From Pseudodesulfovibrio sp. (lineage in GTDB: Bacteria; Desulfobacterota; Desulfovibrionia; Desulfovibrionales; Desulfovibrionaceae): a DNA stretch of 58,720 nt. How positions within the stretch are numbered: the stretch's first letter is position 1; the number at the start of each line of letters is the position of its first letter. The position numbers were made by a program, and so were the translations under genes. Where the stretch lies: contig JAFLJT010000022.1 of assembly GCA_022712855.1 (NCBI GenBank), forward strand, positions 1 through 58,720, in the 5' to 3' direction. A model generated the notes under the pieces. That model made no database searches and was not told where the DNA came from. It saw only the letters and a list, made by a program, of their open reading frames with translations. This document shows positions 8,347 to 26,761 of this stretch, piece by piece.

Positions 8347-8762
8347 TGCTGCCCCAGTGGACTGAAAAATACGTGGGCATTCCTTATCGGGATCACGGGC
8401 GTAATCTCGAAGGCGGTCTTGACTGCTGGGGATTGGTTCGCCTGGTCCTGGAGGAAGAGGCCGATATCAAAATGCCACTACTAGAAAACCTTAAGTTCCA
8501 TCGAGGCTGTGATCGGCGCGCCTTGGGAAAGGCAATTGAAGAATATGACAAGACTGCCATCGATTGGAATCGCTTGAAAATGGATGACCCCGTCGATTGT
8601 TTAGACGTGATCTGGCTGCGTAACGGCGGCCCCATCCACTTTGGCGTTGTCGTGGCACCGGGCTGGATGCTCCATGTCGAAGAAGGCAGCGATTCTTGCC
8701 TGGAACGATATGACGGTCTTGTTTGGAAAAATAGAATCATGGGAGTGTTTCGCCATGGATAA
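8346..8762 (+). CDS. NlpC/P60 peptidase, tail-tip wall hydrolase (gpK-like)
   Basis: A 138-aa protein from ATG 8346 (TAATG overlap with the previous stop). The NlpC/P60 fold is shown by DCWGLVRLVLEEE, with the catalytic Cys at about residue 27, and HFGVVVAPGWMLHVEE, with the catalytic His and the third polar residue. It should cut D-glutamyl-meso-diaminopimelate bonds so the tail tip can pass the peptidoglycan layer. GIPYRDHGRN at the start is the usual lead-in. Order L-K-I/J is canonical. It overlaps the next gene by 8 bases. Confidence 0.88.
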   Translation: MLPQWTEKYVGIPYRDHGRNLEGGLDCWGLVRLVLEEEADIKMPLLENLKFHRGCDRRALGKAIEEYDKTAIDWNRLKMDDPVDCLDVIWLRNGGPIHFGVVVAPGWMLHVEEGSDSCLERYDGLVWKNRIMGVFRHG

Positions 8763-11700
8763 TAGTATGCAACTGTCAGTGTGTCCCCATCCTTTGAGGA
8801 CGCATGTAGAAAACTCCGTCGCCGAGTTCGGCGGCACAGTGGCCGATGTGCTATGCGAAGGGGGATATGAATACGTTCTCAACCCCAAGACCAATGCAAT
8901 AATCACAATTGAGCGCCCAGATGAAGTCATAGATTTGACTCATGATGAGTGCATGACCTTTACACCCATTCCGGGCGATACCATTGGTGTCCGCGTTCTG
9001 CCTTCTGGTGGTGGCGGAGGCGGAAAGAGCCCTGTACGTATGATATTGATGATCGCTGTTATGGTGGCTGTTGCGGTCTTTGCTCCCTATTTAGCTGGTG
9101 CAATGATGGGATTTACTGGATCGTTCAGTACAGTAGCAGCGGCAGGTCTGGCTGTTGGTAATGGTGCACTCGCGGCTGGGTTGGGTGGTGCAATGATGAT
9201 GGTTGGCAATATGATTGTTAATGCCATAGCGCCTCCCCCAATCCCCAAGGCCCCATCCCTTGGTGGTGCAGGCAACGGGCCCACTAACCCAACATATTCA
9301 CTGACCGGTAGCTCGAATAAAGCCAACAAGTATGGTCCTGTCCCACAAGCAATTGGTGGCGAATACCGCATTTTCCCACCGCACGCGGCAGAACCATACA
9401 CAGAGATATCTGGCGATGACACTTTCCTTCGCCAGCGGTTCGCCATGTATGGTCCCATGAAAATTTCCGATATGCGTATCGGCGATACACCCATTGACCA
9501 ATTTGAGGATGTTGAAATCGAGATCTGCGAAGGTTGGGCTACGGATATTGTTCCGACCCTCTATGCTGACGGTCAGGACTTTCACCAAGAGTCTTTGAGC
9601 ATTGACCTGCGTGAAGATACTGGCTGGGTGCAACGTCGTACAAATCCTGATGCCGATGAGATTATCTTTGATATTGCTTGTCCCAGCGGCTTGTATGAAA
9701 TTGGGAAGGGCAATGGAAAACGGGAGTCTACAACTGTTCAGTTCAAAGCGCAGTATGCTATAGTTGACCCCACTGCCGAATACTTTGACGCTGAAGATAT
9801 CGATAACTATGTGGCCCCGGAGGATCGGGGGTGGCAGGATTTCCCGGAAGCCTCCGGCGGCAATCTTTCCATTTCAGGCAAACACCTTTCCCGAACAGCC
9901 CGTTCCTTCAAAGCTCAGGTGGGGCGGGGTCAATACGATGTTCGCTGGCAGCGTACAACAGTTGATGACGAAACTGGTTACATTATTAATACTACCGCGT
10001 TGACCGCTATCCGGACTGTCACATCCCGTCCTGGTATTGATCGTGTGAACCTGCCGTCCATGGCACAGATTGATATCCGTATTCGTGCCAATGGTCAGCT
10101 TAATGGAACTCTTAATGAGTTCAACTTCCTGGGTGAGGCGTACTTACCTGTTTGGGACAGCGAAACTGAACAGTTCGTTATGCAGCTTTCCGACAATCCA
10201 GCTTGGGCATATGTTAACGTTTTGCGTGGTGCAGCCAATAAACGGCCTGTGCCTGATGATCGGCTCGATATGGACCGGATAATCGAGTGGGCACAATTCT
10301 GCGAAGACAACGATCTGCGTATTAATGCGGTCCTAGATTATTCGTCCACGGTCTGGCAGGTGTTGCACGATGTCGCCAGCGTCGGTCGGGCTAGCCGTTC
10401 CATGCGTGATAACCTGTATTCTGTCTGTGTCGACAACGAGAAATCTGTTGCCGTGCAGACCTTCACTCCGCGTAACTCCTGGGGCTTCGAAGGTAGCAAA
10501 GCTTTCCCGGACAAACCGCATGCATTGCGTTGTCGCTTTGTCAACGCCACAGAAGATTATCAGCAGGACGAGCGGTATGTGTATGCAGATGGCTATGACG
10601 AAACCAATGCAGAAGTCTTTGAAGATATTGATTTCTGGGGTGTCACCAATTCGGATCAGGCCTGGAGACAGGGCCGATTCCACTATGCTGATGCTGAACT
10701 GCGCCCTGAGACCTTTACCATCAACACGGATATCGAGAACCTGCGTTGCACACGTGGCGATCGTATCAAACTGGTACACGACGTTATCCTGATCGGCCTT
10801 GGATCTGCACGTATTCGTAACAGCTCCACCCGATATGTGGATGGCGTTGAGGTGGCTTATGATCCCATCCTGAAGGATGAGCAAGGCCGTGTGACCAGTG
10901 TTGAGATTGATTCTGAATGGATTATCGAGGAAGGAAAGACGTACAGCTGTGGCATTCAACTCATGAATGGCGAGAATGTAACGGCGACTTTGTCTAACAC
11001 GGTTGGTGATCATAAGGTTTTGACCTTTGTCGATCCCGTTCCGGCCACAGCAGCACCCGAAGGTGGAGAGCTGATCTGGTACGGCGAAGCAGGCAAGGAA
11101 GCTGAGGATTGTATCATTACGAAGATTGATGCCAATTCTAACTACACGGCACAAATGACGTTGCGTCACTATGCCCCTGAAGTCTTCAATGCTGATCAGG
11201 GAGAAATTCCGGCTTTCGAGTCGAACATCACCCGTGCCCCTGAAACCAAACGCAAGCCCGCAAAACCGGTGGTGCACTCGGTGCAGTCCGACGAGACCGT
11301 GCTCCTGCGTTTACCCAACGGTACGCTGCAGACCCGTATACTGATGTCGATTTCTAGTGCGCCTGGTGATCTCGATACCGAGTACTATCAAGTGCATTAT
11401 CGACCGATAGGTGGGGATTGGCTGACTGTCCCCAATCTTCCCGCTGACAGTGGTTCCGTTTCGCTTACAGGCGTTGAGGATGGGGATACCTATGATATTC
11501 GCATCAGGGCAGTATCCCATACCAACAAGGCCTCTGATTGGGCGTTGATCAACGCGCATACTGTGGTAGGCAAGACAACGCCCCCGCCTGATGTTCCGAC
11601 ACTGTTTATGACCAATGGCAAACTTGTCTGGACATATCCAGATGCACCGCTTGATCATGTTGGTTTTAAGATTCGTTTTAACTCCGGCCAAGATTCCATA

Positions 11701-12600
11701 TGGGAGCGAGGGACTGATCTCGACACTGGTTTGATTACGAACAACGAGCACGACATCTCGGATAAAAGCGGCCAGTTAACCTTTATGGTTAAGGCCTTTG
11801 ATTCGGCAGGATTTGAGAGCCAAGGCGCAGCCGTTCTCTATAAAGATATGGGCGATACAATTCCGGAAAATCTTGTGGAGACATTTGAAATGGCTCCTGA
11901 TTTTGAAGGAACCCCCTCAGGTGGCATCGTTACAGATGGTGTTCTCAAAGCCGAAGGGGCTCCCTTGTGGAGCGGTAACGACGGGAATCAGATCTGGTTA
12001 GGCATGGATCAAAGTAACTTCTGGTCAGATACTTTTGCCGAATTGAGCTACGAGTTCCGTGTTGAAGCTGACGAAAGTATGTTTGGTGCAAATATGACTC
12101 TGCTGACAGAAGGAGTGGAAGGGGATGGTCTTAAAATCCTCTATGCCACAGATTCTCAGCACCTTTTGTGGACCAGCCAACCTGCCAACGAGCTTTGGAC
12201 CGCCATTGCTGATGCCGATTGGTGGAATGGTCGTACGGACTGGGCAAATTGGCCCGGCGAGCTTCACACGATTGAGCCTCAGGCCCATTTCTTTAAAATA
12301 TCTCTGGCAGGAGGGCCTAGCCAGGGCATTATATCCCAAATTGGTTGTCAGCTAGATATGCCGGACATTGCTGAGTCTATAAATGATGTGGTGCTCGACC
12401 AAGTCGGGACACGTCTGCCCATCACCCAGAATTATCGGAAGATCAAGAATATCTCACTCACCATACAAGATGATGGTGGCAATGCTGACATGGTCAAAGT
12501 CTACGACAAGGACGCTGACCTCGGCCCGCTAGTCAGAGCCAAGGACGTGGCTGGCAATTACGTCGGTGCAACCATCGATGCAGTGGTGCAAGGCTACTAA
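8755..12600 (+). CDS. Tail tip/central fibre protein, fused I-J-like
   Basis: A 1281-aa protein from ATG 8755. Residues 1-80 resemble the small beta-grasp part of tail assembly protein I (VAEFGGTVADVL, then PIPGDTIGVRVLPSGGG). Next comes a hydrophobic stretch of about 70 residues (MILMIAVMVAVAVFAPYLAG onward) ending in a Pro/Ala linker, as in I-J junction proteins. The body follows host-specificity protein J: a tip-attachment region (PQAIGGEYRIFPP, RFAMYGPMKISDMRIGDTPI), a large baseplate-hub-like middle, a fibronectin type III region near 842-940 (YYQVHYRPIGGDW, TYDIRIRAVS) and a C-terminal stalk. It forms the tail tip and first receptor contact. Lambda keeps I and J as separate genes. Confidence 0.85.
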   Translation: MDNSMQLSVCPHPLRTHVENSVAEFGGTVADVLCEGGYEYVLNPKTNAIITIERPDEVIDLTHDECMTFTPIPGDTIGVRVLPSGGGGGGKSPVRMILMIAVMVAVAVFAPYLAGAMMGFTGSFSTVAAAGLAVGNGALAAGLGGAMMMVGNMIVNAIAPPPIPKAPSLGGAGNGPTNPTYSLTGSSNKANKYGPVPQAIGGEYRIFPPHAAEPYTEISGDDTFLRQRFAMYGPMKISDMRIGDTPIDQFEDVEIEICEGWATDIVPTLYADGQDFHQESLSIDLREDTGWVQRRTNPDADEIIFDIACPSGLYEIGKGNGKRESTTVQFKAQYAIVDPTAEYFDAEDIDNYVAPEDRGWQDFPEASGGNLSISGKHLSRTARSFKAQVGRGQYDVRWQRTTVDDETGYIINTTALTAIRTVTSRPGIDRVNLPSMAQIDIRIRANGQLNGTLNEFNFLGEAYLPVWDSETEQFVMQLSDNPAWAYVNVLRGAANKRPVPDDRLDMDRIIEWAQFCEDNDLRINAVLDYSSTVWQVLHDVASVGRASRSMRDNLYSVCVDNEKSVAVQTFTPRNSWGFEGSKAFPDKPHALRCRFVNATEDYQQDERYVYADGYDETNAEVFEDIDFWGVTNSDQAWRQGRFHYADAELRPETFTINTDIENLRCTRGDRIKLVHDVILIGLGSARIRNSSTRYVDGVEVAYDPILKDEQGRVTSVEIDSEWIIEEGKTYSCGIQLMNGENVTATLSNTVGDHKVLTFVDPVPATAAPEGGELIWYGEAGKEAEDCIITKIDANSNYTAQMTLRHYAPEVFNADQGEIPAFESNITRAPETKRKPAKPVVHSVQSDETVLLRLPNGTLQTRILMSISSAPGDLDTEYYQVHYRPIGGDWLTVPNLPADSGSVSLTGVEDGDTYDIRIRAVSHTNKASDWALINAHTVVGKTTPPPDVPTLFMTNGKLVWTYPDAPLDHVGFKIRFNSGQDSIWERGTDLDTGLITNNEHDISDKSGQLTFMVKAFDSAGFESQGAAVLYKDMGDTIPENLVETFEMAPDFEGTPSGGIVTDGVLKAEGAPLWSGNDGNQIWLGMDQSNFWSDTFAELSYEFRVEADESMFGANMTLLTEGVEGDGLKILYATDSQHLLWTSQPANELWTAIADADWWNGRTDWANWPGELHTIEPQAHFFKISLAGGPSQGIISQIGCQLDMPDIAESINDVVLDQVGTRLPITQNYRKIKNISLTIQDDGGNADMVKVYDKDADLGPLVRAKDVAGNYVGATIDAVVQGY

Positions 12601-12655
12601 ACAGACAATCCCAAACCAAATTGCGAAAGTCGTCACAAACCCGGTTTTGACCGGG

Positions 12656-12682
12656 GGCGAGCCGGATGAAATCCGGCTCGCC
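12656..12682. other. Strong intergenic hairpin
   Basis: A perfect 12-bp GC-rich inverted repeat (12656-12667 with 12671-12682) closes on a 3-base loop in the 119-base gap between the tip protein and the first fibre gene. No T tract follows, so it is not a standard terminator. It could be a processing site, a partial attenuator that lowers fibre expression, or a recombination scar at the boundary where fibre modules are exchanged. Confidence 0.6.
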
Positions 12683-12719
12683 TGGGCGACTATGCGCTAA
12701 AAAGCATGATGAGGAATAT

Positions 12720-14171
12720 ATGACCAAGCTACCTGAGATGACTTTTTTGGATGAACCCCGAACTGAAAGCGAACTTAAAAATCAGTTTTTTGGCAATATT
12801 GTAGGGATCCTGTCTGAGATGCTCGGTGGTGCCCCAGTGTCCAAGTTGTTTATTGCGTCGGGGACAGTTGTTCCGACGGCCGCCAACCATACACTCGACA
12901 CTGAAGGCGGTGTGTCTAGCGATGAACTGGCGACAGTTGATGTCATCAATCATCCCGAAGGGCGGATTTTGACTTTGTCCTGTGCGGATAACAGTCGGGC
13001 AATAACCATCAAGCACGGCATGGGCGGCTCTGGCCAGGTGATTTTGAATGACTTTCAAGATCTCACCCTGAATGACACCCGTGACCGCTTGTTTCTGCAA
13101 CGGGTCGATACCTACTGGGAAGAAATGTTCCGGGCAGGACCATCCTTTAAAAACGAACCGGTTGACCCCGATACCGTCGTGGCTCCGAGTGGCGTGTTGC
13201 CTGCACTGGATGGGAGTCAGCTAACTGGCTTGCCGAATCAAGATGTACCTAATTGGCTCATTCAATCCACCATGCGGAATACTATGCATCGTTTGACGGA
13301 TGAGGGGCTCTCAAAGTTTGGGTTGTCCGGTTCGACCATCGACGAGTTTGTCGATGAAACAGGAATCGACGCTACAGCCTGTTCGGGAGTTGTCTACACA
13401 TCAGGCCAGTACTCAAACTGCTCTTACGGGCAGACATCGATCATGCATACGGCCGGTGGCAGCATTACGGCTTCTGGTGAACGTGCTGGCACCTACGGTA
13501 AAGAAAAGGCCGCGGACGGCGGATCCAGCACGGAGTGGTATTCCGATCAAACATCCAATGTCTGGTGGAGCTATGACCTTGGCACTGGAAACGATAAACG
13601 TTTCTGGAAGTGGGGGTGCCGAATAACTATGTCATCTAGTTATGTTGGCGCGGCGCGTTGCCCCTCCCGCATAACCTTTCAGGGGTCCAATGACGGATCC
13701 ACTTGGACTGATATTGATGACCAGACAGGGTTGTCCTGGTCGTCCGCATTGCAGGTTCGATACTTTGAGGTCCCGATAACCTCTTCATATCGTTATATAC
13801 GATATGCCAATATGTCGGCGAGTACCAACCTCCTGATGAATGAGTTCTATGTATTTGATGCGGCGCTTAACGATATGATGCTTCAATCCAATACTCACAA
13901 TGCCCTTACTCCCCCTGAAACCGTTCATGCCCTTATTCGAGCCGAGTTTTCCGGTACGCTTAATGCGGATTTCAAGGGCGAAATATCCCGTGATGGCGGT
14001 ACGACTTGGACAGAGGGCGTTCTTTCAAAGATCGCTGACGAGGGAGCCGTAGACTACTACGAAACTCTGGTCGATGTGTCCGGACAACCAGCCGGGACTG
14101 ACATCAAATACAAGATCACTTCACACAATTTCGAAAATTTGATTGTCCATGCGGTTGGGCTGAACTGGTAG
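12720..14171 (+). CDS. Tail fibre protein with adapter and F5/8 type C domains
   Basis: A 483-aa protein from ATG 12720, with GAGGA just upstream. Residues 1-150 are the same domain that forms the start of the proteins at 14239 and 19301 (FLDEPRTESELKNQFFG, LSCADNSRAITIKHGMGG, LTLNDTRDRLFLQ, WEEMFRAGPSF). I read this as the part that docks on the tail tip. A collagen-like short linker (GVLPALDGSQLTGLP) follows, then a discoidin/F5-8C-type carbohydrate-binding module at about 260-390 (WWSYDLGTGNDKRFWKWGCR, ITFQGSNDGSTW, YRYIRYANMSA), and a C-terminal beta domain. Unlike the other two units it has no separate fibre or chaperone gene. Confidence 0.75.
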   Translation: MTKLPEMTFLDEPRTESELKNQFFGNIVGILSEMLGGAPVSKLFIASGTVVPTAANHTLDTEGGVSSDELATVDVINHPEGRILTLSCADNSRAITIKHGMGGSGQVILNDFQDLTLNDTRDRLFLQRVDTYWEEMFRAGPSFKNEPVDPDTVVAPSGVLPALDGSQLTGLPNQDVPNWLIQSTMRNTMHRLTDEGLSKFGLSGSTIDEFVDETGIDATACSGVVYTSGQYSNCSYGQTSIMHTAGGSITASGERAGTYGKEKAADGGSSTEWYSDQTSNVWWSYDLGTGNDKRFWKWGCRITMSSSYVGAARCPSRITFQGSNDGSTWTDIDDQTGLSWSSALQVRYFEVPITSSYRYIRYANMSASTNLLMNEFYVFDAALNDMMLQSNTHNALTPPETVHALIRAEFSGTLNADFKGEISRDGGTTWTEGVLSKIADEGAVDYYETLVDVSGQPAGTDIKYKITSHNFENLIVHAVGLNW

Positions 14172-14238
14172 CAGTTTGTGCCATGTTGACCGTGCCGTAT
14201 CTTTAATAAAAACACTATAATATAAATGGAGACTACCG

Positions 14239-15012
14239 ATGACTGACATTCCTAAAATTACCTATTTGGATGATGCCCGTACTGAAAGTGACCTAAAGAA
14301 TCATTTTTTTGGACCCATTACTAGCGTCTTATCTGAGATGCTGGGTGGAGCACCTGTGTCCAGATTGCCTCTCAGTTCTGGGGTGGCTATTCCTTTTGCA
14401 GCCAATCATACTATTGATACAGAGGCTGGTGCCTCCAGTGACGATCTGGAATCGTTGGATGCGAGCAACCATTCAGAAGGTCGTATTATTACTATTTCTT
14501 GCGCAGATAACAGCCGGAGCGTGGTTGTTAAGCATGGCAGTGGTAACGCGGGGCAGGTGCTCCTTCATGGCTATGAAGATCTTACTCTGAACGACACCCG
14601 TGATCGTCTTTTTTTGCAACTCATTGGCTCTAATTGGGAAGAACTGTTCCGAGCTGGCCCTTCCTTCATGAGTGAGCCTGCCGATTCTGACATTCTCAAA
14701 GCCAATGAGTTGGAAACTCTGGCAACCGCTTACTATGAAATATATGTCGATATCCCCGCAGACACCGTGGATTTCACCGCTTCCTGTAAGTTCAAGAAAA
14801 CATTGACCACGGCATGGACCCTCCCTGATTCCATTCCCGGCGGTCAGGGACAGTGGATTTTCCATGTCTATCCAGCAGGCAACGTATTAAGCATCCCGGT
14901 GTCTTATGCCGTCATCGGCGACGATCCTGATGTGAACGCGACCTACATCAAGATTGTTTATGACTATGACGGCACGACCAGGACTCTCTCCATTTGTAAC
15001 GTGGGAGTATAG
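14239..15012 (+). CDS. Fibre adapter protein, cassette 1
   Basis: A 257-aa protein. Residues 1-155 are a paralogue of the N-terminal domain at 12720 and 19301: FLDDARTESDLKNHFFG-like start, ISCADNSRSVVVKHG, LTLNDTRDRLFLQ and WEELFRAGPSF. Residues 160-257 form a second small beta domain similar to the one at the end of the 19301 protein (HVYPAGNVLSIPVSY here). It is followed 1 base after its stop by a long fibre gene. The arrangement suggests a separate connector subunit that joins a receptor-binding fibre to the tail tip. GGAG precedes the ATG, and an AT-rich TATAAT-containing leader resembles that at 19280. Confidence 0.65.
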   Translation: MTDIPKITYLDDARTESDLKNHFFGPITSVLSEMLGGAPVSRLPLSSGVAIPFAANHTIDTEAGASSDDLESLDASNHSEGRIITISCADNSRSVVVKHGSGNAGQVLLHGYEDLTLNDTRDRLFLQLIGSNWEELFRAGPSFMSEPADSDILKANELETLATAYYEIYVDIPADTVDFTASCKFKKTLTTAWTLPDSIPGGQGQWIFHVYPAGNVLSIPVSYAVIGDDPDVNATYIKIVYDYDGTTRTLSICNVGV

Positions 15013-15013
15013 C

Positions 15014-17953
15014 ATGCCTTTGACAAGCAAGGATGTTTTGAACAGTGGCGCGGGCAAGGTGTTCCCCGTCGATATTCCATACTCTGCCCTTCTTGAAAGC
15101 GGCTACTCTTCGACCGGAGCCGTAGCCACAGATGCAACCATAGCCCTCGGTTTTAAGCCCACAGCCGCTTCCACTGCACCACTCAATGATATGACGGCGC
15201 ACTACCTGCTGACCATTCAAAAGATCGGCTCCACGGTCCGCGTCTGGAAACAGGGCGTTGAATTGGCAAACTATACGGGCGGCGTGTTCACTTCAAACGC
15301 TGCTTTCTTGATAAGCGTGTTGACCGCCTACGCTGGCAGCGCCAAGGGCTACTACTCCCGTCTGGACGTTGTTGAACAGGAGATGGCTTACACTGACTTT
15401 TGGGAGTGTTCCGACTTCGTTACAGGTTTATGGGTAGCGAAAGAAGTTATTCTTCCTGTGTTCACAATTCCTGCGTCTTACTCAAATCCCGATGGCACAG
15501 GTAACCGCACAAGTACAATTATCACCTCTGAGGAGGGTGCGCCGTTTAAGACTGGTAGTCTTGCAACCCTGATCAATGGCACTAACTTGACTGACTCTTG
15601 GCTCGTCGAAGCCAAGGCAACTATCGGTAGCAGAATGATATGGCAATTCAGCACACCGAGAATAATAACAGAGGCTAAGTGGTTTCAGGAATACGGCACA
15701 GTGCAGGGTGTGTGGAAATGGCAGGGTAGTAACGATGGGGTTGAGTGGACTGACCTTTCGGCTGACTTTACCTTGGGTGGCGCAGCTTTGTCCGTGATGG
15801 GTGATCTCAGCGCAAATACTGAAGCTTTCCCCTACTACTGCATTAGCGGTGTCAGTGGGGTTACTCGTAGTGCTTCTTACACATACGAGGTGACCTTTAA
15901 AATTACTGACGCTGTTGAATACACCTACGGTCCCGGTGGCGGCAAGTACTACTTCGCTGATGCACTGAATCTTGGCGAAGATTCAAGTGGCAACGGCAAC
16001 AACTGGACGGTCAACGGCACACAGACGCTTGATACGCCGACTAATAACTACTGCACGCTGAATCCACTCCATAAGTACATCAACGCGGGAACTGTTTCTC
16101 TGTCAGAAGGCAATAACAGGGTTGTAGCGGGAACCGCTGACTACGGCCTTTACAATGGAGCATTCCAGTTGCCCACTTCTGGCAAGTGGTACTGGGAACA
16201 GGAGATGACTGGCGCAAATGGGACTGGTGGAATAGGAGCCGACACTACAATAAATATTAACAATGTTATAAGATTTGAAACTACGGCTCTTTACGGTAGT
16301 GCTTGGGCCACGGGTCAGTCGGGTTTATCCGCTATTCAGGCTGGTAACATAATGGGAATCTGCTATGACGCAGACGCTCAGACTGTACAGTTCAAACGGC
16401 AAAATTCGGATCATGGAACCCCAGTTGACCTATCGTCTGCTACTATTAGTTTATTCCCGATGGCTGGCGATTTTTGGAACGCACAAGCCACAGACTCAAC
16501 ACTGAACTTCGGCGCAACAGGCTTCACCTATACACCTCCTACTGGCTTCCTCGCACTCAACACAACCAATCTCCCAGACCCAACCATCCTCAAGTCCTCG
16601 ACTGTTGCTGACTTCGTAACGAGGGTTGGTACTGGCGATGGAATTACCAAGTTGACACTTGGCGGATTAGGGGTTGAATCTGTTAGTCGCACAAGTCAGT
16701 ATTCAAGCAATGGAGTATACACAGAAGATGGGACTGGTATTAATGATGGATGGCACAAATCTGCATCATTTAGTGCTGATTGGTTCCGCTATACTTTTAC
16801 GAATCCACAAATTTGTGACAGGTTGATAGTTGGCAACCGTACTGACCAGACTGCCTATAATATTACAGGTGGAACAATTCAGGCGTCACATGATGGTGCT
16901 GCATGGGATACCCTCGGCACTTTTTCTGGCCGCTCCCAATCTACACCAAACAGAACGGAACATGCGTTCACGAATACCACAGCGTATAAATATTATCAGG
17001 TATCCAGCCCTGTCAATGGAGGCAAAAGCTACATTGACGTATCATTCCTCGCCTTTGGTGTTTATGCCGAAACAGAAGTAGTCCTCCCTGATATGGAAGG
17101 TGGCCCTGACTTTGTGTCCACAAAGTCAACATCATTATCATCCGCGTGGGTTATAAATGACACCGTGCGCGGTGCGGGCGTGGAGATTTATACCAACGGA
17201 TCAGGAGCAGAATATGACAATCCTGATGGTATGCAATCCTTCACTAGCGATGGATATACATTAGGCTCAGGGTTCAACACCAATAGTGATACTGGTTCGT
17301 TCCTCGACCTCTGTCTCAAGGCTGGCGTTGACCAAGGGTTCGAGATTCAGGTGGAGAACAGCTTCGCAAGCGGGGTTACTAGACCCCACAGCTTGGGCAA
17401 GCCAATTACATTCGCGATTTACAAGCCCCTTACGGGAACGAGTGACTGGTTTGTTTGCCACAAAGACCTGCCAGCAGATAAATTCTTGCGACTCAACCAG
17501 ACCTACGCAGTCAGTACGACCAACCTAATGACCACCAATACATCCACAGGGTTCACACCGGATGGTCTGGCTGGTTGGAACGGTATCCCAATGGTCTTTT
17601 ACCTCTTCACCGACTCCGACATATTCAAGGCGTTCAGCTACATTGGCAACGGAGTAGCAGACGGGCCGTTTGCGAATCTCGGTGGGAAGCTATTGAGTGT
17701 GCCATTCTTGAAGAACGTTGATGTAGATGGCTACTGGCACAGCTTTCATACTGCGACTTCACCCGTTAATCCCGATACCAACTATCTGTTGCCAAGTGAG
17801 GCGCTAGCGCAGGGTACTTCCGGCGCATTTCAACGCAGTTATACATCTAACGGCATTAAGATTGAAGCCACGGACTCCCAACTGAACGGCTCCGGCAACC
17901 TGCATGTCGGCCTCGCAATCCTCGAATCAACAAAATATTCAAACTCATACTAA
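15014..17953 (+). CDS. Long tail fibre / receptor-binding protein, cassette 1
   Basis: A 979-aa protein from ATG 15014, directly after the adapter stop. It is a chain of binding modules. The first 160 residues are LamG-like (IPYSALLESGYSS, then SDFVTGLWV). An F5/8C-like module follows (RIITEAKWFQEYGTVQGVWK, WQGSNDGVEWTDL), then a SPRY-like module (LGEDSSGNGNNW, QTLDTPTNNYCTLNPL, SGKWYWEQEM). A second F5/8C-like module comes at about 550-690. The C-terminal region (AFSYIGNGVADGPFANLGGK) ends in GLAILESTKYSNSY. That end and the SPRY module are shared at the DNA level with the fibre at 20088, while the rest differs. It should bind surface glycans of target cells. Confidence 0.72.
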   Translation: MPLTSKDVLNSGAGKVFPVDIPYSALLESGYSSTGAVATDATIALGFKPTAASTAPLNDMTAHYLLTIQKIGSTVRVWKQGVELANYTGGVFTSNAAFLISVLTAYAGSAKGYYSRLDVVEQEMAYTDFWECSDFVTGLWVAKEVILPVFTIPASYSNPDGTGNRTSTIITSEEGAPFKTGSLATLINGTNLTDSWLVEAKATIGSRMIWQFSTPRIITEAKWFQEYGTVQGVWKWQGSNDGVEWTDLSADFTLGGAALSVMGDLSANTEAFPYYCISGVSGVTRSASYTYEVTFKITDAVEYTYGPGGGKYYFADALNLGEDSSGNGNNWTVNGTQTLDTPTNNYCTLNPLHKYINAGTVSLSEGNNRVVAGTADYGLYNGAFQLPTSGKWYWEQEMTGANGTGGIGADTTININNVIRFETTALYGSAWATGQSGLSAIQAGNIMGICYDADAQTVQFKRQNSDHGTPVDLSSATISLFPMAGDFWNAQATDSTLNFGATGFTYTPPTGFLALNTTNLPDPTILKSSTVADFVTRVGTGDGITKLTLGGLGVESVSRTSQYSSNGVYTEDGTGINDGWHKSASFSADWFRYTFTNPQICDRLIVGNRTDQTAYNITGGTIQASHDGAAWDTLGTFSGRSQSTPNRTEHAFTNTTAYKYYQVSSPVNGGKSYIDVSFLAFGVYAETEVVLPDMEGGPDFVSTKSTSLSSAWVINDTVRGAGVEIYTNGSGAEYDNPDGMQSFTSDGYTLGSGFNTNSDTGSFLDLCLKAGVDQGFEIQVENSFASGVTRPHSLGKPITFAIYKPLTGTSDWFVCHKDLPADKFLRLNQTYAVSTTNLMTTNTSTGFTPDGLAGWNGIPMVFYLFTDSDIFKAFSYIGNGVADGPFANLGGKLLSVPFLKNVDVDGYWHSFHTATSPVNPDTNYLLPSEALAQGTSGAFQRSYTSNGIKIEATDSQLNGSGNLHVGLAILESTKYSNSY
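17909..17953 (+). repeat. Fibre 3'-end direct repeat, copy 1
   Basis: The last 45 bases of fibre 1, encoding GLAILESTKYSNSY and stop, match 41 of 45 bases at 22344-22388, the end of fibre 2. Both copies are in the same orientation, so recombination between them would delete or duplicate a whole cassette. Further shared blocks lie about 15970-16060 and 20765-20860 (SPRY-like part) and in the region just before the repeats. Confidence 0.85.
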
Positions 17954-17967
17954 GAAGGAGTATTACT

Positions 17968-18624
17968 ATGGAAAATCTCATATTGAAATCGTCTGGCTGG
18001 TGGGTCGGTCCCTGGAATCGCACCGTAGTTGGTGGGCTGCCTGCAACCAAGGTCGAAGTCGAACGCGGCGGTATTGCTTGTGCCATCGCTGCAAATAAAC
18101 TTTCCAAGGAAGAACGCGAAATTTTAGGCATCTTGCCCTGGCAGGAATATGGAGTGGCCAAATTCCATGATGTCCTGGATTGGGAAGTCGTGGAAGAGGC
18201 CGGCATAAAGATCCGACGTCCCGTCCATGTCGAGTTCAAGGTTGGAGAGGCCAAGGCTGATTTGATGGCGAAGATTGATGGTAAACGAAAAGTTGTTGAA
18301 GAGGGCGGTTTCGTTTTTGATGAAGTGTTTTACGCCACCGATCAGAAAGGGCGCACTGCTTTAGAGAGTGCTCAAGCTGCTTTTGACCTTGATATCAATC
18401 ATGTGGAGACGGATTGGCTTGCACGCGCCCCCGAGACAAACGAGCGTGTCTGGGTTTCTATCGATTCGGCCAAGTATGCAGCACTCATGGTATCCATGCG
18501 GGATCATATTCGCGCCTGCTTTACTGAGCAGCGTCGTAAATCCGAGGAACTCGTCCCCTCTATCAATACCTATGACGATTATCTCTACTTCATCGAATTC
18601 GAGTTGGATTCCAGCTGGCAGTAA
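17968..18624 (+). CDS. Probable fibre assembly chaperone, DUF4376-like, cassette 1
   Basis: A 218-aa protein 14 bases after the fibre stop, with AAGGAG upstream. The C-terminal 95 residues (ALESAQAAFDLDINHVETDW, VWVSIDSAKYAALMVSMRDH, DDYLYFIEFELDSSW) follow the DUF4376 layout: a helical start, a variable loop and a segment ending in an aromatic strand. That domain is typically found in tail fibre assembly genes behind fibre genes. The N-terminal half is unfamiliar. It is not related to the chaperone of cassette 2 at 22401, so each fibre seems to travel with its own assembly factor. Confidence 0.55.
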   Translation: MENLILKSSGWWVGPWNRTVVGGLPATKVEVERGGIACAIAANKLSKEEREILGILPWQEYGVAKFHDVLDWEVVEEAGIKIRRPVHVEFKVGEAKADLMAKIDGKRKVVEEGGFVFDEVFYATDQKGRTALESAQAAFDLDINHVETDWLARAPETNERVWVSIDSAKYAALMVSMRDHIRACFTEQRRKSEELVPSINTYDDYLYFIEFELDSSWQ

Positions 18625-18698
18625 ACATAACTACTTTCATCACTTCTGCTGAATAATAAAGTAACCCCTTGATATAACGTTATTATGGCGCTTTGTAG

Positions 18699-18880
18699 CG
18701 GATTGAAAAACAGTCCGAACAGGAAAGTTGCGTCCTATGAAGCAGGTGTGAGTTGAAACGAGTGTAGCTGCGGAACGAACTTTTGAGGTTCCCGCTGTTG
18801 CCCCATGTAGTCTTCTTTTGGAGACGGGAGGCGCTGGTCTTTGCAGCCAGCCTGCAGATTCCTCCCGTCTCCGTACATGG
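18699..18880 (+). ncRNA. Highly structured untranslated stretch, unknown
   Basis: Several hairpins follow one another in the 282-base gap between cassette 1 and the acidic gene. A 7-bp stem with an AAAAA loop lies at 18699-18717. GCGGAAC pairs with GTTCCCGC (one bulge) at 18770-18795. A large element from 18803 to 18880 has CCATGTA pairing with TACATGG outside, an uninterrupted 12-bp GC-rich stem (18820-18831 with 18861-18872), and a 5-bp stem inside it. The ATG at 18907 follows 26 bases later. No T tract follows, so it does not look like a terminator. It could be a 5' leader controlling the acidic gene, or a small RNA. I know no matching family. Confidence 0.5.
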
Positions 18881-18906
18881 CTTGAAGAGTAAATGGAGAT
18901 CGAGGC

Positions 18907-19227
18907 ATGAGCGAAGAAAATGTAGAGCGCGATGATATTCCCATTCTGTCGGAAGATTTCATGATCGAAACGGCGGAAGAAGTTGGCGATGACAGTACTG
19001 GCGAATCCGAAGAATTGATTGATTATCTAGACGATATTGCTGGTTCTCATCTCGGTGGAGCTGACGAAGTCCCCGGGGACCATTTGGGTGGTCATTCTTT
19101 TGGACCAGAAAGGTCTGGGGCGGACGACAATCCCTTTCTCGGGGATCGGTATGCCGAATTGCGTATCGGATCAGCAGGACTGTCCGAGGTGGAAGACTAC
19201 ATTGAGGAGGTGGAATTGTACCGCTAA
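18907..19227 (+). CDS. Small acidic protein between fibre cassettes, unknown
   Basis: A 106-aa, strongly acidic protein (many Asp and Glu, very few Lys) without hydrophobic segments. It starts at ATG 18907 with TGGAG upstream, ahead of a cluster such as ENVERDDIPILSEDF. The middle has a repeat-like HLGGADEVPGDHLGGHSFG with paired Gly-Gly and His. No family is recognised. It lies between the structured stretch and the adapter of cassette 2 and has no counterpart before cassette 1. A chaperone-like or decoration role, or an anti-host or immunity protein tied to the fibres, are guesses. The open frame and ribosome binding site support a real gene. Confidence 0.6.
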   Translation: MSEENVERDDIPILSEDFMIETAEEVGDDSTGESEELIDYLDDIAGSHLGGADEVPGDHLGGHSFGPERSGADDNPFLGDRYAELRIGSAGLSEVEDYIEEVELYR

Positions 19228-19300
19228 ATCATCAGTCATTTCCTTCTGGCAGTGGCATAACAACAAAGTATTAGAACTATATAATATTAGGAGAATTTAA

Positions 19301-20086
19301 ATGACCACCATTCCTGACATTCAGTTTCTTGATCAGGCTCGGACAGAAAGCGAACTGAAAAACCAATTCTTTTCTGAAATTCTTGATTGCATCGCCGAAT
19401 TGCCTGGTGGCTCGGCTGTCAGCAATTTGACTATTTCTTCAGGGGCAGTCACGCCCGCGACTGCGGCGCATTCTGTGGATACCGAGCACGAAGACAGTTC
19501 AGATGATCTCGATCGTATTGCCGTGACTGAGCACCCTGAGGGGCGCATTCTCATGCTTTCCTGTGCCGATAACAGTCGTAGCGTGACCCTCAAACATGGC
19601 ATGGGTGGCTGGGGTCAGGTCTTGCTGAATGATGAGAGTGACCTTGTTTTGTCCGATACCCGCGATCGGATTGTCCTACAGCGTAAGGCCGATACTTGGG
19701 AGGAGGTATTCAGGGCTGGCCCCTCTCTCCAGTTTGAGATTGTGAATCCTGCCATTCTCAAGGCGGATATGCCGAATGTCATTGAAACAATGTTTAGCGA
19801 CGACTATCAGACGCACACCGGAACAGACCTGGCAGCCTTCACGCCCATTCGCAATAAGATCGAATGGACGTTGACCGCAGCTTCCACCTTTGACGAACTG
19901 TCTCAGGACAATCCCGTAAGCTTGGTGTTTTACATCAAGCCCGCCGGATTCACTTTGTCCTTCGCTGCTAGCGTTTATATCATGTACGGCGAGTCCTTCG
20001 ATGACACGGCTCCCGAGGTACGGGTGAGTGTGGATATTAATGGCTCTGACAAGCGCGTGACTATCGCCAACGCCAAGGCGGTATAG
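19301..20086 (+). CDS. Fibre adapter protein, cassette 2
   Basis: A 261-aa paralogue of the protein at 14239. The shared N-terminal domain is clear (FLDQARTESELKNQFF, LSCADNSRSVTLKHGMGG, LVLSDTRDRIVLQ, WEEVFRAGPS), and the C-terminal beta domain also corresponds (SLVFYIKPAGFTLSFAASVY). AGGAG sits before the ATG. It is followed one base after its stop by a long fibre gene, in the same ATG-after-TAG arrangement as in cassette 1. The function is inferred: an anchoring subunit linking the second fibre to the tail tip. Confidence 0.65.
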   Translation: MTTIPDIQFLDQARTESELKNQFFSEILDCIAELPGGSAVSNLTISSGAVTPATAAHSVDTEHEDSSDDLDRIAVTEHPEGRILMLSCADNSRSVTLKHGMGGWGQVLLNDESDLVLSDTRDRIVLQRKADTWEEVFRAGPSLQFEIVNPAILKADMPNVIETMFSDDYQTHTGTDLAAFTPIRNKIEWTLTAASTFDELSQDNPVSLVFYIKPAGFTLSFAASVYIMYGESFDDTAPEVRVSVDINGSDKRVTIANAKAV

Positions 20087-20087
20087 C

Positions 20088-22388
20088 ATGAGTCTGACAC
20101 CAAATTGCAGGGATACAGGAGGTGGGGCGGCTGCAATTTTCCCCTACCCCATCGACTACTCTGCACTGCTCAATGGCGGGTACATGTCTCGCACTCCCGC
20201 CGTGAGCGGAAACATGAAAACTTGGAGCTTTGGCACTTCGTTCAAGAGGTCTGAACTGAACGAGTACCACTACCTGTTACAAGTATTTACAGAAGGGGCA
20301 GATTACGTTGAAATTCGGATAGAGGACACTAATGTACTCCGCATTTACCTATCAAAAACCAGTGGTGTAAAACTACAACTGGCAACAACACTTGTACTGA
20401 GTGACCCTACAGATTGGTACAACCTCCTTTTTACCCTCGATACTTCTCTGGCAACGCCAGAATTTCACCTGTACTTGAACGAGAAGGAAGTAACAGCTTT
20501 TGATATAGAGACGAACAATCTTGTGCAGAACGAAGAATTCGTTGTGAACCAAGCGGGGCAAGTCCACTACCTATTCACCAAGTTCAACTTTCAATATTCA
20601 TTCAAGGACTACGTTGCGAACACGTATTTGGTAGATGGTACAGCCCTCGCGTTGTCCGATGTTGGTGAGTCTTCCGATCAGGTCACAGGCTTGTGGATTC
20701 TGAAAAACATTAGCTCACTCGATTTCGGTGACGAAGGTTCACTCCTTGAATTCGGCAACGCCATCGACCTCGGCGAAGATTCAAGCGGCAACGGTAACGA
20801 TTGGGCCGTGAGTGGTTCGCCTGTGCAGACGCTTGATACGCCGACGAATAAACACTGCACATTCAATCCGCTTATTGATTCGTGGAACTCCAACGACACC
20901 ACGCTGTCAAACGGCAACACAACCACCACCTCCCCGTCAAATTCAAACTTTGTCATGGCGATGGGTGACCAGCCGTTTAACCTATCAGAAGGCGTGTATT
21001 GGGAATTGGATTTGGACACGCTCACGACTTCGGCATCTTTCTACGCCGGGGCTGTGCAATTCGACTCCCCGTCAATCAACATGCTTATAGCCGGGAACAA
21101 CTATTTCACGGTTAATGAAAACAACTATTATGCTGATGGTGGTACGGCAATTCCGTGGTCCTCACCGGGGATAATTAGTACAGGTGACATACTCAGATTT
21201 GCCTTGAAAGACGGCAAGATGTGGGTTGGGATAAATAACGATTGGCTGGAAAGTGGCGATCCCGCTAATGACACGAATCCGCTTATGACCGGACTGCGGG
21301 ATAAGATGGTTCCTTTCGTTACAACCTATCGCACAGACCAGATTGTCACTCTGCAATCTGGTGCGAGAGGTTTTACATATGCCGCGCCAGCAGGGTTTAA
21401 CCCACTCGACAGTACTTCCATTGCTGTCCCCACCATCCTCAAGTCCGAAGAATATGTAGAAACAATCCTGTTCACCGCACCAACAGACACCACCGTTGAT
21501 TTGAAAATTGGTTGGGACGTTGGCTCGACTGATTGGCTGATGATTCTCAAAAACAGAGACTCGGTTGAAAGTTGGGTCTGGGTTGATACGGTGCGTGGCC
21601 TCAACAAATATTGGGAGAGTGACACAAGCGATGTGGAAGGTACGCTGACCACCGCTGTAACAGTCTCCGGCTCGACGGTAACAATCCCGGCTGACCTGAT
21701 CACAAACGGCGATGACTATGTGGTCACGTTTATCCGCTCTTGTCCTGAAAGCGGGTTGGATATTGTCAAATACACTGGTGATAGTACGTCTGGGAAGACT
21801 GTACCTCACGGCTTAGGCCAAGTTCCCACAGTGATGATCGTCAACAACCTCGAAGTCGCTGGCCAGCACTCGATGCTCTATCACGTTGATCTCGGGCCGA
21901 CGATGTATGTGAGGTTTAACCTAGACCTCGCTGCTGGTGTCTCTTCGGCTACATGGAATGACACCGCGCCTACCTCTACAGAGTTTACACTCGGCAGTAC
22001 CGGAAATGTTAATCAGAGTGGCTATGAACACGTCGCATACCTTTTTGCCGATGGCCCCATATTCAAGGCGTTCAGCTTTGAAGGTAATGGCCTTGCTGAT
22101 GGGCCGTTTGTGAACCTTGGTGGGAAGCCGCTGAGTCTGCCTTTTGTTAAGGCCGATGCTGCTGGCGCACAATGGTATAATTCAGATGCCGCTCGTAGTC
22201 CGTTAAATCCCGTTGATAAGGTCTTGTATTCCAACCTGCCTAATGCGGAGGTGGATAACGGCATTGGTTTTAACTTTGCTTCTACTGGGTTCAAGTTGGG
22301 TACAAATGACGGCAACATAAACCCTAGCGGTACTCTTGTAGTTGGCCTCGCGATCCTCGAATCCACCAAATATTCAAACGCATACTAA
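20088..22388 (+). CDS. Long tail fibre / receptor-binding protein, cassette 2
   Basis: A 766-aa protein from ATG 20088. The N-terminus is a LamG/concanavalin-like module (YPIDYSALLNGGYMS start, DWYNLLFTLDTSLATPEFHL). The SPRY-like module (LGEDSSGNGNDW, QTLDTPTNKHCTFNPL, GVYWELDLDTL) corresponds to the one in fibre 1. Residues about 440-560 hold a repeat-containing beta region, then a TSGKTVPHGLGQVPTVMIV segment typical of phage fibre tips, and a C-terminus almost identical to fibre 1 (AFSFEGNGLADGPFVNLGGK, GLAILESTKYSNAY). It lacks the two F5/8C modules of fibre 1, so the two should bind different surface sugars while using the same ends for anchoring and folding. Confidence 0.72.
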   Translation: MSLTPNCRDTGGGAAAIFPYPIDYSALLNGGYMSRTPAVSGNMKTWSFGTSFKRSELNEYHYLLQVFTEGADYVEIRIEDTNVLRIYLSKTSGVKLQLATTLVLSDPTDWYNLLFTLDTSLATPEFHLYLNEKEVTAFDIETNNLVQNEEFVVNQAGQVHYLFTKFNFQYSFKDYVANTYLVDGTALALSDVGESSDQVTGLWILKNISSLDFGDEGSLLEFGNAIDLGEDSSGNGNDWAVSGSPVQTLDTPTNKHCTFNPLIDSWNSNDTTLSNGNTTTTSPSNSNFVMAMGDQPFNLSEGVYWELDLDTLTTSASFYAGAVQFDSPSINMLIAGNNYFTVNENNYYADGGTAIPWSSPGIISTGDILRFALKDGKMWVGINNDWLESGDPANDTNPLMTGLRDKMVPFVTTYRTDQIVTLQSGARGFTYAAPAGFNPLDSTSIAVPTILKSEEYVETILFTAPTDTTVDLKIGWDVGSTDWLMILKNRDSVESWVWVDTVRGLNKYWESDTSDVEGTLTTAVTVSGSTVTIPADLITNGDDYVVTFIRSCPESGLDIVKYTGDSTSGKTVPHGLGQVPTVMIVNNLEVAGQHSMLYHVDLGPTMYVRFNLDLAAGVSSATWNDTAPTSTEFTLGSTGNVNQSGYEHVAYLFADGPIFKAFSFEGNGLADGPFVNLGGKPLSLPFVKADAAGAQWYNSDAARSPLNPVDKVLYSNLPNAEVDNGIGFNFASTGFKLGTNDGNINPSGTLVVGLAILESTKYSNAY
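22344..22388 (+). repeat. Fibre 3'-end direct repeat, copy 2
   Basis: The second copy of the 45-base block described at 17909-17953, with four mismatches. It encodes the last residues of fibre 2. The two copies are 4.4 kb apart and enclose the cassette 1 chaperone, the structured stretch, the acidic gene, adapter 2 and fibre 2. Confidence 0.85.
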
Positions 22389-22400
22389 AAGGAAAAGATC

Positions 22401-22829
22401 ATGTTTCGATATAATAACGGACAATTCAAACAGACACCCCCGGCCACGGTCGAATACCAGGGCTTCATGCGCACCTTCAGCGATCTCACCCGCGAACAAT
22501 GGGACGAGCTTGGTTACAACGAAGCCATTCTCGCTAAGCGCGAACCATTCACCACGTACACAACCCAATGGGTGAAAGGCAACGACCTGATCTATCGAGA
22601 GGAGATTCTTACAACCACGATGGACGAATCGGCACAGGCAAACGCCACGGCTGACACGGTACGGGCTGAGCGCGATAAGATGCTCATGGCTTCCGATTGG
22701 ACACAGCTTGCGGATTCCACTCTGAACGACGAAGACATGGCGCTCTGGAAGAGTTATCGCCAGACACTCAGGGATATGCCGCAACAGGTCGGATTCCCGC
22801 TTATGGTAAAGTTGCCTGTTGCACCTTAA
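22401..22829 (+). CDS. Tail fibre assembly chaperone (Phage_tail_APC-like), cassette 2
   Basis: A 142-aa protein 12 bases after fibre 2, with AAGGAAA upstream. The last 50 residues carry the phage tail assembly chaperone signature (RDKMLMASDWTQLADSTLND, LWKSYRQTLRDMPQQVGFP), in which the cDWTQ, WxxYRQxLRD and final proline elements are conserved. The N-terminal half is typical of fibre chaperones (FMRTFSDLTREQWDELGYNE). It should help trimerise fibre 2. It is unrelated to the chaperone of cassette 1. It is the last gene of the tail region. Confidence 0.8.
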   Translation: MFRYNNGQFKQTPPATVEYQGFMRTFSDLTREQWDELGYNEAILAKREPFTTYTTQWVKGNDLIYREEILTTTMDESAQANATADTVRAERDKMLMASDWTQLADSTLNDEDMALWKSYRQTLRDMPQQVGFPLMVKLPVAP

Positions 22830-23604
22830 GAATGTTTAGCAAGGAATCTCCCTTTCAATAAGAGTTTAAACTCCTGAACTATTCTTACCGTCACACTTTG
22901 GTGGTCAACTATATCTACCCCTATTTTGTGCTGCCAAAGTGTTCCGGTTTGTCGCCCCTCTTAATTTAATCGATATGTCTTTTAGGTGCAATAACTGGGC
23001 TTGGCGCTGGCGAAAGAGTTAACGCTATACGCTGAAATCTATATGTAAATTGGTCAGAATATTGCAATCGATCGACATTCGCTTTTGGAAGTGAGGATTA
23101 GTGTAAATTTTTACATGTATAAATGAGGTGAAACAGGTGAGACTATTGTGATCGTTCTTTTTGTAGCTTGTTGGATACACTGAAAAAGATAATTGTACTA
23201 ATTTTATATGTATCTATCCATTTGAGTTAAGAGTGGTTGGTGTCAAATCAATGATACTTGTTAATCAGATAAGTAACATTTCAGGTTGTTTATCCACTGC
23301 TCGCTGATATTATTAAATTACTACTTGGTAAGTATATAATTTACATAGTGTCGTGGCTTGCAAACTTACAACTATTAGTCAGAATAATTGTATAATTCAT
23401 ACAAGTTACCATTTGTATGTGAGAAGTCTATTTATGTTGAGTTGGGGTGTTTGATTCATTCTAGTGATGAATTTGTCGCAATAATTGTCACAATAGTCTG
23501 TGATTACGATATCGGTGTGGTCAGATGGGGGGAGGCAAATGTTAGCCGAGAAACATGATTATTGTTTCTTCTGACAAATTGTTATTGAATATGAGGTTAG
23601 GAAA
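22830..23604. other. AT-rich gene-free gap after the tail module
   Basis: About 775 bases without a believable ORF. A 9-bp inverted repeat (22893-22901 with 22934-22942, 32-base spacer) lies soon after the last tail gene and could help stop transcription, though no T tract follows. GAGTTTAAACTC at 22862 is a perfect palindrome. Two TATAAT boxes (23335 and 23391) could be -10 elements, but I see no convincing -35 partners. Base composition is clearly lower in GC than the tail genes. Confidence 0.5.
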
Positions 23605-23814
23605 ATGAAACGGTCTGAGTATATATTAAATGGAATGAATGAAATTTGTGCATATGTAGGAGGTTACTCTTCTCCCACTGTTCTAAAATGGATTCGACAA
23701 GGCTGTTTCCCTGCATGGCAAGAAAGAAGAGGTGGGGTCTGGAGGAGTGACACAAGGGCTATTGACGATTGGAATTTAAAAAAAACCAAAACCGCTACCA
23801 GGCAAGCTCATTAG
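23605..23814 (+). CDS. Small HTH DNA-binding protein
   Basis: A 69-aa protein with GAGGTTAGG ahead of the ATG. NEICAYVGGYSSPTVLKWIR is a MerR/excisionase-like winged helix-turn-helix, followed by a basic wing (PAWQERRGGVWRSD) and the usual IDDWN ending. Proteins of this kind in prophages act as excisionases or as small regulators. It stands alone in AT-rich DNA, transcribed in the same direction as the tail genes but downstream of them. It could regulate the tail locus or be a leftover of the integration module, whose integrase is not seen. Confidence 0.68.
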   Translation: MKRSEYILNGMNEICAYVGGYSSPTVLKWIRQGCFPAWQERRGGVWRSDTRAIDDWNLKKTKTATRQAH

Positions 23815-24481: not shown

Positions 24482-24514
24482 AAAGGCTTAGAATGAATAC
24501 ATTCTAAGCCTTTT
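24482..24514 (+). terminator. Intrinsic terminator-like hairpin
   Basis: A perfect 14-bp stem (24482-24495 with 24500-24513) with an AATA loop ends in CCTTTTCTC. This is a strong terminator for rightward transcription. No gene directly before it is evident; it may serve the HTH gene region or be inherited from a lost gene. Confidence 0.7.
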
Positions 24515-25131: not shown

Positions 25132-25195
25132 GAATACTCCTTTCGTTTCGATCAGAATGACTGAAACTGAAGGAGTTAGCGAAACACGTAAACGA

Positions 25196-26653: not shown

Positions 26654-26661
26654 GATTTCGT

Positions 26662-26737: not shown

Positions 26738-26761
26738 ACATTTGCCGTTCAGGCGAAAAAA

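Follow-up and report, generated by a model that had tools for sequence, protein, structure and literature searches.

How can one phage tail come to carry several receptor-binding proteins, and what would let its fibers be replaced while the tail itself stays the same? These questions are raised by a 58,720-nucleotide stretch of DNA from Pseudodesulfovibrio (the window), which is the entire contig C80 of source assembly G000, a metagenome-assembled genome (MAG) of 369 contigs that is 88% complete. Behind a gene for a lambda J-like tail-tip protein, the window encodes three consecutive receptor-binding units whose products begin with the same domain. From sequence comparisons, and with a probability of roughly 0.6, we interpret them as a modular array for host recognition in a siphophage of the lambda/J type, present as a prophage or a remnant of one: a shared N-terminal domain (the dock) would attach each unit to the tail, a second domain (the socket) would receive the first ~10 residues (the plug) of a separate fiber, and the resulting cassettes would be exchangeable.

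Three receptor-binding units share a paralogous N-terminal domain

The array follows a gene for a 1281-residue J-like central tail fiber (8755..12600; this and all other array genes are on the plus strand), which matches phrog_31 (central tail fiber J, E 5e-113) and FNIII-A_GpJ (E 4e-19). Unit 1 (12720..14171) is a single protein in which the dock (residues 1-149) is fused to a fiber with an F5/8 type C (F5/8C) domain (residues 248-368, E 5e-11). Units 2 and 3 are split. The unit 2 adapter (14239..15012; dock at residues 1-149, socket at ~147-257) precedes a 979-residue fiber (15014..17953) that opens with the plug MPLTSKDV, carries DUF7483 near its C-terminus and contains an F5/8C-like stretch below the Pfam cut-off. 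Behind this fiber lies a DUF4376 gene (17968..18624; PF14301, E 4e-7, 31.0 bits, cut-off 25). The unit 3 adapter (19301..20086; dock at residues 1-149, socket at ~148-261) is followed by a 766-residue fiber (20088..22388; plug residues MSLTPNCRDTGGGA), which also has DUF7483, and by a Phage_tail_APC gene (22401..22829; PF16778, E 1e-21, 77 bits, cut-off 26.6). DUF7483 (PF24299, cut-off 27) scores 111.7 bits (E 5e-32) in fiber 2 and 156.7 bits (E 1e-45) in fiber 3. The DUF4376 and APC families are chaperones that act in fiber folding, and we assign both genes to this role: each matches its family above cut-off and stands behind a fiber gene. The adapter/fiber junctions of both split units read TAG-c-ATG, with a single base between stop and start. 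A gene for a very acidic 106-residue protein (18907..19227) separates units 2 and 3.

The initial annotation had described the N-terminal domains of the proteins starting at 12720, 14239 and 19301 as paralogs, and comparison of the three confirms it. Over the first 149-150 residues, identity to protein 1 is 64% for adapter 2 (E 1.3e-65) and 60% for adapter 3 (E 4.5e-55), and 73 of the 150 columns in the three-copy alignment are invariant. The motifs quoted as common to the copies are recognizable in all three, although not letter for letter (copy 3 reads LSDTRDRIVLQ and FRAGPSL). The proposed layout also stands, with an F5/8C domain in protein 1 and separate DUF7483 fibers plus chaperones behind adapters 2 and 3. 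Searching the entire source genome to E 1 recovered exactly these three dock copies. The dock is rare: it occurs in three of 60 relatives, the source genome included, and in one of 395 sampled genomes of the phylum, which is again the source genome. Scans of viral contigs with two dock/adapter alignments and with J found no relative, and phage records searched with the dock gave matches to its core only.

One such core match places dock residues 48-139 against the last ~90 residues of a tail-fiber protein of Achromobacter phage Axy11 (Schitoviridae). This domain is C-terminal in Axy11 and on the N-terminal side here, and it is therefore probably a general fiber domain; the first ~45 dock residues are more likely to be the tail-specific part. 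A weak core-only match to the adapter profile (residues 43-152, E 5e-6) lies in G031, in an open reading frame (ORF) just ahead of a 1004-residue fiber-like ORF. Structure prediction of adapter 2 from a six-row alignment reached a mean predicted local distance difference test (pLDDT) score of 48, and only the socket part was usable; the single-sequence model of adapter 3 (mean pLDDT 33) was useless. Foldseek returned nothing from the PDB at E ≤0.001 and 11 matches from BFVD at ≤0.001, mostly poorly superposed, the best clean one covering 72 columns at 2.4 Å. Matches of the dock profile to 'Pizza' designed proteins were rejected: these are repeat proteins, and no stretch passed alone.

The array is conserved in related genomes

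Pseudodesulfovibrio sp. MC-09, which gave the only match among contigs of named genomes and which we treat as one genome with the relative G029, has the array genes in the order of the window: J, unit 1, unit 2, the 106-residue acidic protein (43% identity over 86 residues, E 4e-15) and unit 3. Identity between window and MC-09 is 76% for J, 78% for the unit 1 docks, and 72% and 62% for the full-length adapters 2 and 3. The two loci pair clearly at the unit 3 dock (76%) and at the unit 2 socket (79%) and chaperone (70%). The cargo of unit 1 differs: the window has the fused F5/8C fiber, and MC-09 has an adapter with another C-terminal domain followed by separate proteins of 359 (glycine-rich) and 128 residues. 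The 359-residue protein (L011, 12358-13437) shares an FGDGSDG start region with a glycine-rich fiber-like protein of the G020 myophage (L094, 10079-11311), and both stand behind split adapters.

The third genome with a dock, G016, contains a prophage in which a J protein 47% identical to that of the window is followed by one adapter, one fiber and one APC-like chaperone, the last 51% identical to the unit 3 chaperone. Its contig carries terminase (phrog_15) and portal (phrog_21) genes. The check proposed for copy number per locus thus gives three docks in the window, three in MC-09 and one in G016, all full-length copies behind J.

These loci bear on the earlier proposal of a single docking site that takes alternative fibers, giving mixed or switchable host range. 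The docks behind J in three genomes and the different cargo at one position fit the idea of a docking domain that accepts alternative fibers. The switchable part is not supported: the only inverted repeats are two short imperfect 17-nt pairs, and outside the docks the top direct repeat in the first 26 kb (self-blast) measures 54 bp at 89%. We rejected switching by inversion or template repeats on these repeat searches, which did not extend to recombinase or reverse transcriptase genes.

A socket domain spread through the genus

The second domain of the split adapters (residues ~150-257) is unrelated to the dock, and a socket profile search did not find it in the fused protein of unit 1. In the adapter 2 model it corresponds to a beta-rich block at residues ~181-257 with pLDDT 70-86. 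A profile of the full adapter matched 31 of the 36 Pseudodesulfovibrio genomes, and beyond the three genomes with the array or the G016 prophage nearly all matches were limited to residues ~143-254. A profile of the socket alone likewise matched 31/36 genomes of the genus and none of 312 other sampled genomes of the class. Phage records searched with one socket sequence gave no match.

In most of these genomes the socket forms the C-terminal part of a ~330-residue protein followed by a separate fiber. The N-terminus of this protein is of a T7-like tail-protein kind (phrog_1640) in the three tested, and a chaperone follows in the loci that were read fully. The socket also occurs in podophage-type elements with divergent T7-like N-termini (G005 C43, phrog_1640, E 2e-7; G031 C1, phrog_2710), in a siphophage with a tape-measure gene whose adapter N-terminus has no family match (G005 C147), and in a myophage with a tail sheath gene, where the N-terminus is that of a collar fiber (G020 C9, phrog_327). 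One C-terminal module therefore stands behind at least four N-terminal docks that differ clearly from one another: two of siphophages, one T7-like (podophages and the chromosomal set described below) and one of a myophage collar. An adapter followed by a separate fiber is the usual layout in the Pseudodesulfovibrio loci read.

The first ten fiber residues co-vary with the socket

We compared sockets with fiber N-termini in 38 units (703 pairs), defining the plug as the first ten fiber residues and the body as residues 21-80. Two rows were dropped (G023, where the adapter frame ends early, and G031, for its match at C13), and units in which adapter and fiber could not be assigned confidently were left out (G033, G015, G016:C23 and G020:C3); L105-L109 repeat units already included. 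The fiber of the MC-09 chromosomal cluster lies off its contig, and this cluster enters socket rankings only.

Plugs fall into groups that follow socket type. With the start codon read as M, an MLTPKE-like plug is found in 21 of the 24 units with the main socket type. MGLxxDL is shared by the chromosomal units of G003 and G004, the G016 siphophage and the G031 podophage, and the socket of this podophage is nearest to those of the MGLxxDL group (35-41%). MPLTSKDV begins the unit 2 fibers of both arrays, MSLTPxCRD is common to unit 3 of the window and the chromosomal copy in the source genome, and MGLTPxx to G014 and G017.

Across all pairs, socket similarity correlated with plug similarity at r 0.71, and at 0.68 when body and dock were controlled (p 2e-4, 0 of 5000 permutations); the partial correlation of dock with plug was -0.13, and that of socket with body was 0.11 (p 0.10). 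Thinning to 18 units with sockets <65% identical kept the effect (0.56, p 2e-4). We then compared the 323 pairs that were clearly alike or different in socket and body, the others being intermediate. Mean plug identity where sockets were alike was 0.73 with similar bodies (97 pairs) and 0.56 with differing ones (52 pairs); where sockets differed it was 0.32 (59 pairs) and 0.33 (115 pairs), respectively. Stepwise profiles located the signal. Along the fiber, r was 0.78 for residues 1-10, 0.49 for 6-15 and 0.26-0.41 in later windows; along the adapter, it was 0.63-0.78 over the last ~100 residues and then 0.35-0.37. Together, the results indicate that the first ~10 residues of the fiber track socket type in these sequences, independently of fiber body and dock.

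A rival explanation is that this pattern reflects linkage only: plug and socket would co-vary since recombination tends to break just inside the fiber gene, and adapters would still carry fibers by way of some other attachment surface. In most units only a few bases lie between the codons of plug and socket, chaperones and fiber ends have been exchanged too (see below), and the correlation between socket and body is significant before controls. Linkage, however, predicts decay on both sides of the junction, whereas the correlation stays high over ~100 adapter residues and drops within ~10 residues of the fiber. It also sits poorly with the pairs that separate body from socket, in which plug identity is low with alike bodies on different sockets and higher with alike sockets under different bodies. 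We consider linkage unlikely as the full explanation.

Exchange with a podovirus-like gene set of the chromosome

The chromosomal cluster that also carries the socket belongs to a podovirus-like gene set that is near-universal in the genus. Terminase was matched in 34 of 36 genomes (33 at ≥68% identity; G029 only partially, at 50%), and tail tube B and the head-tail adaptor in 35/36 each. Most genomes have one close copy; the terminase is in two pieces in G023, and tail tube B in G024 and in two fragmented genomes, G029 and G008. In the source genome the set lies on C106 (L046), C63 (L079) and C79, and in G019 on C1:1,521,000-1,572,000 (L047, L055, L057), with further loci in other Pseudodesulfovibrio genomes. 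Terminase, tail tube B and head-tail adaptor of G019 fall within ~36 kb, with other genes between them that appear host-like by eye, and the distance from terminase to tail tube B in single-contig genomes ranges from ~11 to 94 kb. Gene names that lack a family call (for example in L055 and L056) were assigned by eye.

Conserved across the genus, mostly present as one close copy and dispersed among host genes, the set looks like a gene transfer agent, and on these sequence features we propose it as a candidate one for the genus. Dd1 of Desulfovibrio desulfuricans is described as a gene transfer agent in a related genus, and recent work on Faecalibacterium reports an agent, arranged in two operons, that is 'most likely podovirus-like' (PMC12946183). 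A full-text literature search found no paper that pairs 'gene transfer agent' with 'Pseudodesulfovibrio'.

In unit 3, dock and socket do not go together. The unit 3 docks are 76% identical between window and MC-09, and the chromosomal adapters of these two genomes are 75% identical in their N-terminal parts; the unit 3 sockets are 77% (window) and 76% (MC-09) identical to that of the chromosomal cluster in the same genome, compared with 44% between the two unit 3 sockets and 38% between the two chromosomal ones. Among 30 sockets, that of the own chromosome ranks first for window unit 3, second for MC-09 unit 3, third for the G005 siphophage and first for the G005 podophage. It ranks third for MC-09 unit 2 as well, at an identity of only 34%. 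Since window unit 3 alone combines this with a rare socket type, it is the clear case of exchange.

The shared DNA ends near module borders. Window unit 3 and C106 share a tract (19746..20129, plus strand; blastn) that extends from codon 149 of the adapter gene through the first 14 codons of the fiber gene, at 73% over 384 bp; the corresponding MC-09 tract runs from near adapter codon 150 to 17 codons into the fiber gene (75% over 395 bp). A second window tract (22328-22798) covers the last 61 bp of the fiber gene and most of the chaperone gene, at 86% over 472 bp against C106. The G005 siphophage and the chromosomal cluster share fiber end and chaperone (92% over 516 bp) and a stretch that starts at the socket and reaches ~105 codons into the fiber (74% over 673 bp), and shared tracts therefore need not stop at the plug.

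Proposed function of the array and alternative explanations

The paralogous docks, the conserved order of units, the spread of the socket, its co-variation with the plug and the tracts ending at module borders suggest the following scheme. Carrying the same tail-docking domain, all three units would probably share one class of attachment site at the tail tip, for which position behind J and conservation point to the J-like protein (8755..12600). In units 2 and 3 the dock would end in a socket that receives the ~10-residue plug of a separate fiber, as co-variation and tract ends suggest; unit 1 would be a fused alternative. A cognate chaperone would fold each separate fiber, and the lectin-like parts (F5/8C and DUF7483) may bind surface sugars. 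Because docks are machine-specific and sockets common to the genus, socket and plug, often with fiber end and chaperone, could move between prophages and the chromosomal podovirus-like set and still assemble. Most likely, all three fibers would be made and displayed, either together on mixed tails or in competition.

A broader version, which we advance tentatively and at slightly under even odds, is that the genus has an interchange standard for tail fibers, in which docks differ by machine and a single socket/plug family stands behind them. A common pool of fibers would then supply siphophages, podophages, myophages and a resident particle resembling a gene transfer agent, a prophage could adopt the fiber of its host's particle and the reverse, and several units could be stacked on one tail.

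Several observations weigh against the modular array. Three of the 24 units with the main socket type have deviating plugs (G008, G012 and G032). Before controls, socket and body correlate at r 0.31 (p 0.003), and plug and socket are adjacent in the DNA; part of their co-variation could thus be linkage. The dock has no confident fold in the models, all of single chains. The own chromosomal socket ranks only 21st of 30 for window unit 2, where exchange is not supported, and the MC-09 unit 3 socket, for which it ranks second of 30, is of a common type. In MC-09, docks 1 and 2 resemble each other (87% in protein; 91% in DNA over 460 bp) more than they resemble the window docks, which leaves no one-to-one pairing by sequence; their shared tract ends at the dock border, and docks within one array therefore recombine as well. 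MC-09 unit 3 has an adapter and a fiber and no chaperone-like ORF before the transposase genes. Finally, head genes for the window element were not found on its own contig, nor in searches of the source genome, which covered terminase and portal only.

The three adapters could instead build one compound structure, for example a heterotrimer, or adapters 2 and 3 could branch from unit 1. Three similar docks in a fixed order in two genomes would suit such serial assembly, and branched multi-fiber assemblies have been modeled for Klebsiella phages (PMC6872550). We find it doubtful in view of the G016 prophage, which has a single unit behind its related J.

The units could also be decaying duplicates in a broken prophage, of which one or none works. 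The contig begins within a pair of transposase genes (HTH_Tnp_1, rve) next to the holin, and MC-09 unit 3 lacks a chaperone-like ORF. The G016 portal has no match in the source genome, and the G016 terminase has only a 32% match there, on a contig with a tail sheath gene that therefore belongs to another phage. Against decay, all listed array genes are open in the window, as are adapters and fibers in MC-09, and the invariant dock residues have been retained in all seven adapters; it appears improbable.

A tail-only killing particle (a flexible tailocin), in which three fibers on a headless tail would widen the target range among kin, is the least probable alternative: the window runs from holin and putative lysis gene through tail genes and fibers to a tRNA and host genes, and head genes are absent next to the holin both here and on the MC-09 contig. 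Against it, terminase and portal genes accompany the G016 relative, a transposase gene occupies the expected head-gene place on both contigs, the two MAGs are incomplete (82-88%), and the search for head genes was limited to terminase and portal.

Relation to known systems

The initial annotation knew of no described system with a split-adapter layout. This was too strong, given both the frequency of the layout in Pseudodesulfovibrio and phage K1-5, where, in the published description of its tail, a separate adapter holds two tail proteins, and with them two specificities, by conserved N-terminal peptides of 7 and 11 residues (PMC6872550). Units 2 and 3 resemble the K1-5/K1E/SP6 type in having a separate adapter gene next to the receptor-binding proteins (unit 1 is fused). 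The start of the fiber co-varies strongly with the adapter sequence here and may play the part of the K1-5 peptides. Units 2 and 3 differ in several respects from what that report describes. The K1-5 adapter has a T4gp10-like domain, of which searches at the sequence level found none here (neither split adapter matched any Pfam family to E 1, and the socket profile matched no PDB chain); one K1-5 adapter carries two proteins, whereas each split adapter here is followed by its own fiber; and the docks here are paralogs within one locus, with several socket types. On the first two points we do not class the units as K1-5-type.

Fiber sharing has a precedent in the unrelated Alteromonas phages A5, V22 and P24, which are reported to share tail fiber and DUF4376 chaperone modules; in the account of this exchange, the fit of these parts to three different machines is treated as an open question (PMC10579305). 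As there, fiber and chaperone move between morphologically different phages of one host genus, and DUF4376 appears in both cases (here in unit 2). In contrast to that account, a machine-specific dock with a common socket offers an explanation here, and one partner is a genus-wide chromosomal set. An adapter with a short peptide and fiber sharing between unrelated phages are thus already known. What the Pseudodesulfovibrio loci would add is a concrete, testable answer to the Alteromonas question of fit, in the form of a machine-specific dock, a genus-common socket and a ~10-residue plug. If plugs match sockets across the tail machines of the genus, fibers could be traded between machines. The loci also link prophages to a dispersed set resembling a gene transfer agent; if it is one, domesticated particles and phages would trade host-recognition parts.

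The fiber bodies themselves resemble the DUF7483/SPRY fibers of marine phages (Pelagibacter phages, cyanophages and Roseobacter phage CRP-811), and 62 phage records match fiber 3. In CRP-811 a separate 247-residue 'fiber protein' gene is annotated just upstream of the fiber gene. Socket and dock profiles had no match among a few such upstream proteins from four marine phages, and a full-text search found no paper naming 'DUF7483'.

Flanking genes and other features of the window

Gene order in the window is holin (phrog_199), DUF5675 protein, tail genes and fibers; beyond these come a tRNA and genes of the host, among them one for a class II tRNA synthetase. Transposase genes lie just upstream of the holin on both array contigs (HTH_Tnp_1/rve at window 139-1138; ISL3 at G029:C464 26111-26701), where head genes would be expected. 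An RNA family scan of 12000-27000 found nothing except one tRNA. Promoter and terminator scans were uninformative (21 promoter-like sites versus 14.3 expected; 6 terminator-like versus 10.4 expected). Downstream of the last chaperone, self-blast detected a 32-bp near-perfect palindrome (94%) at 24482-24513.

The source genome contains a second prophage on C15 (L078), with terminase (phrog_15), portal (phrog_21) and tail sheath (phrog_23) genes, the last of which marks it as contractile-tailed. Two small genes at window 2295-3118 encode the DUF5675/phrog_1501 protein and a phrog_2524 protein, both of which may act in lysis. They have relatives among the dispersed genus-wide genes: the phrog_2524 relative adjoins the terminase on C63 of the source genome (L079, 1807-2256), and a phrog_1501 relative lies at L055, 13426-13830.

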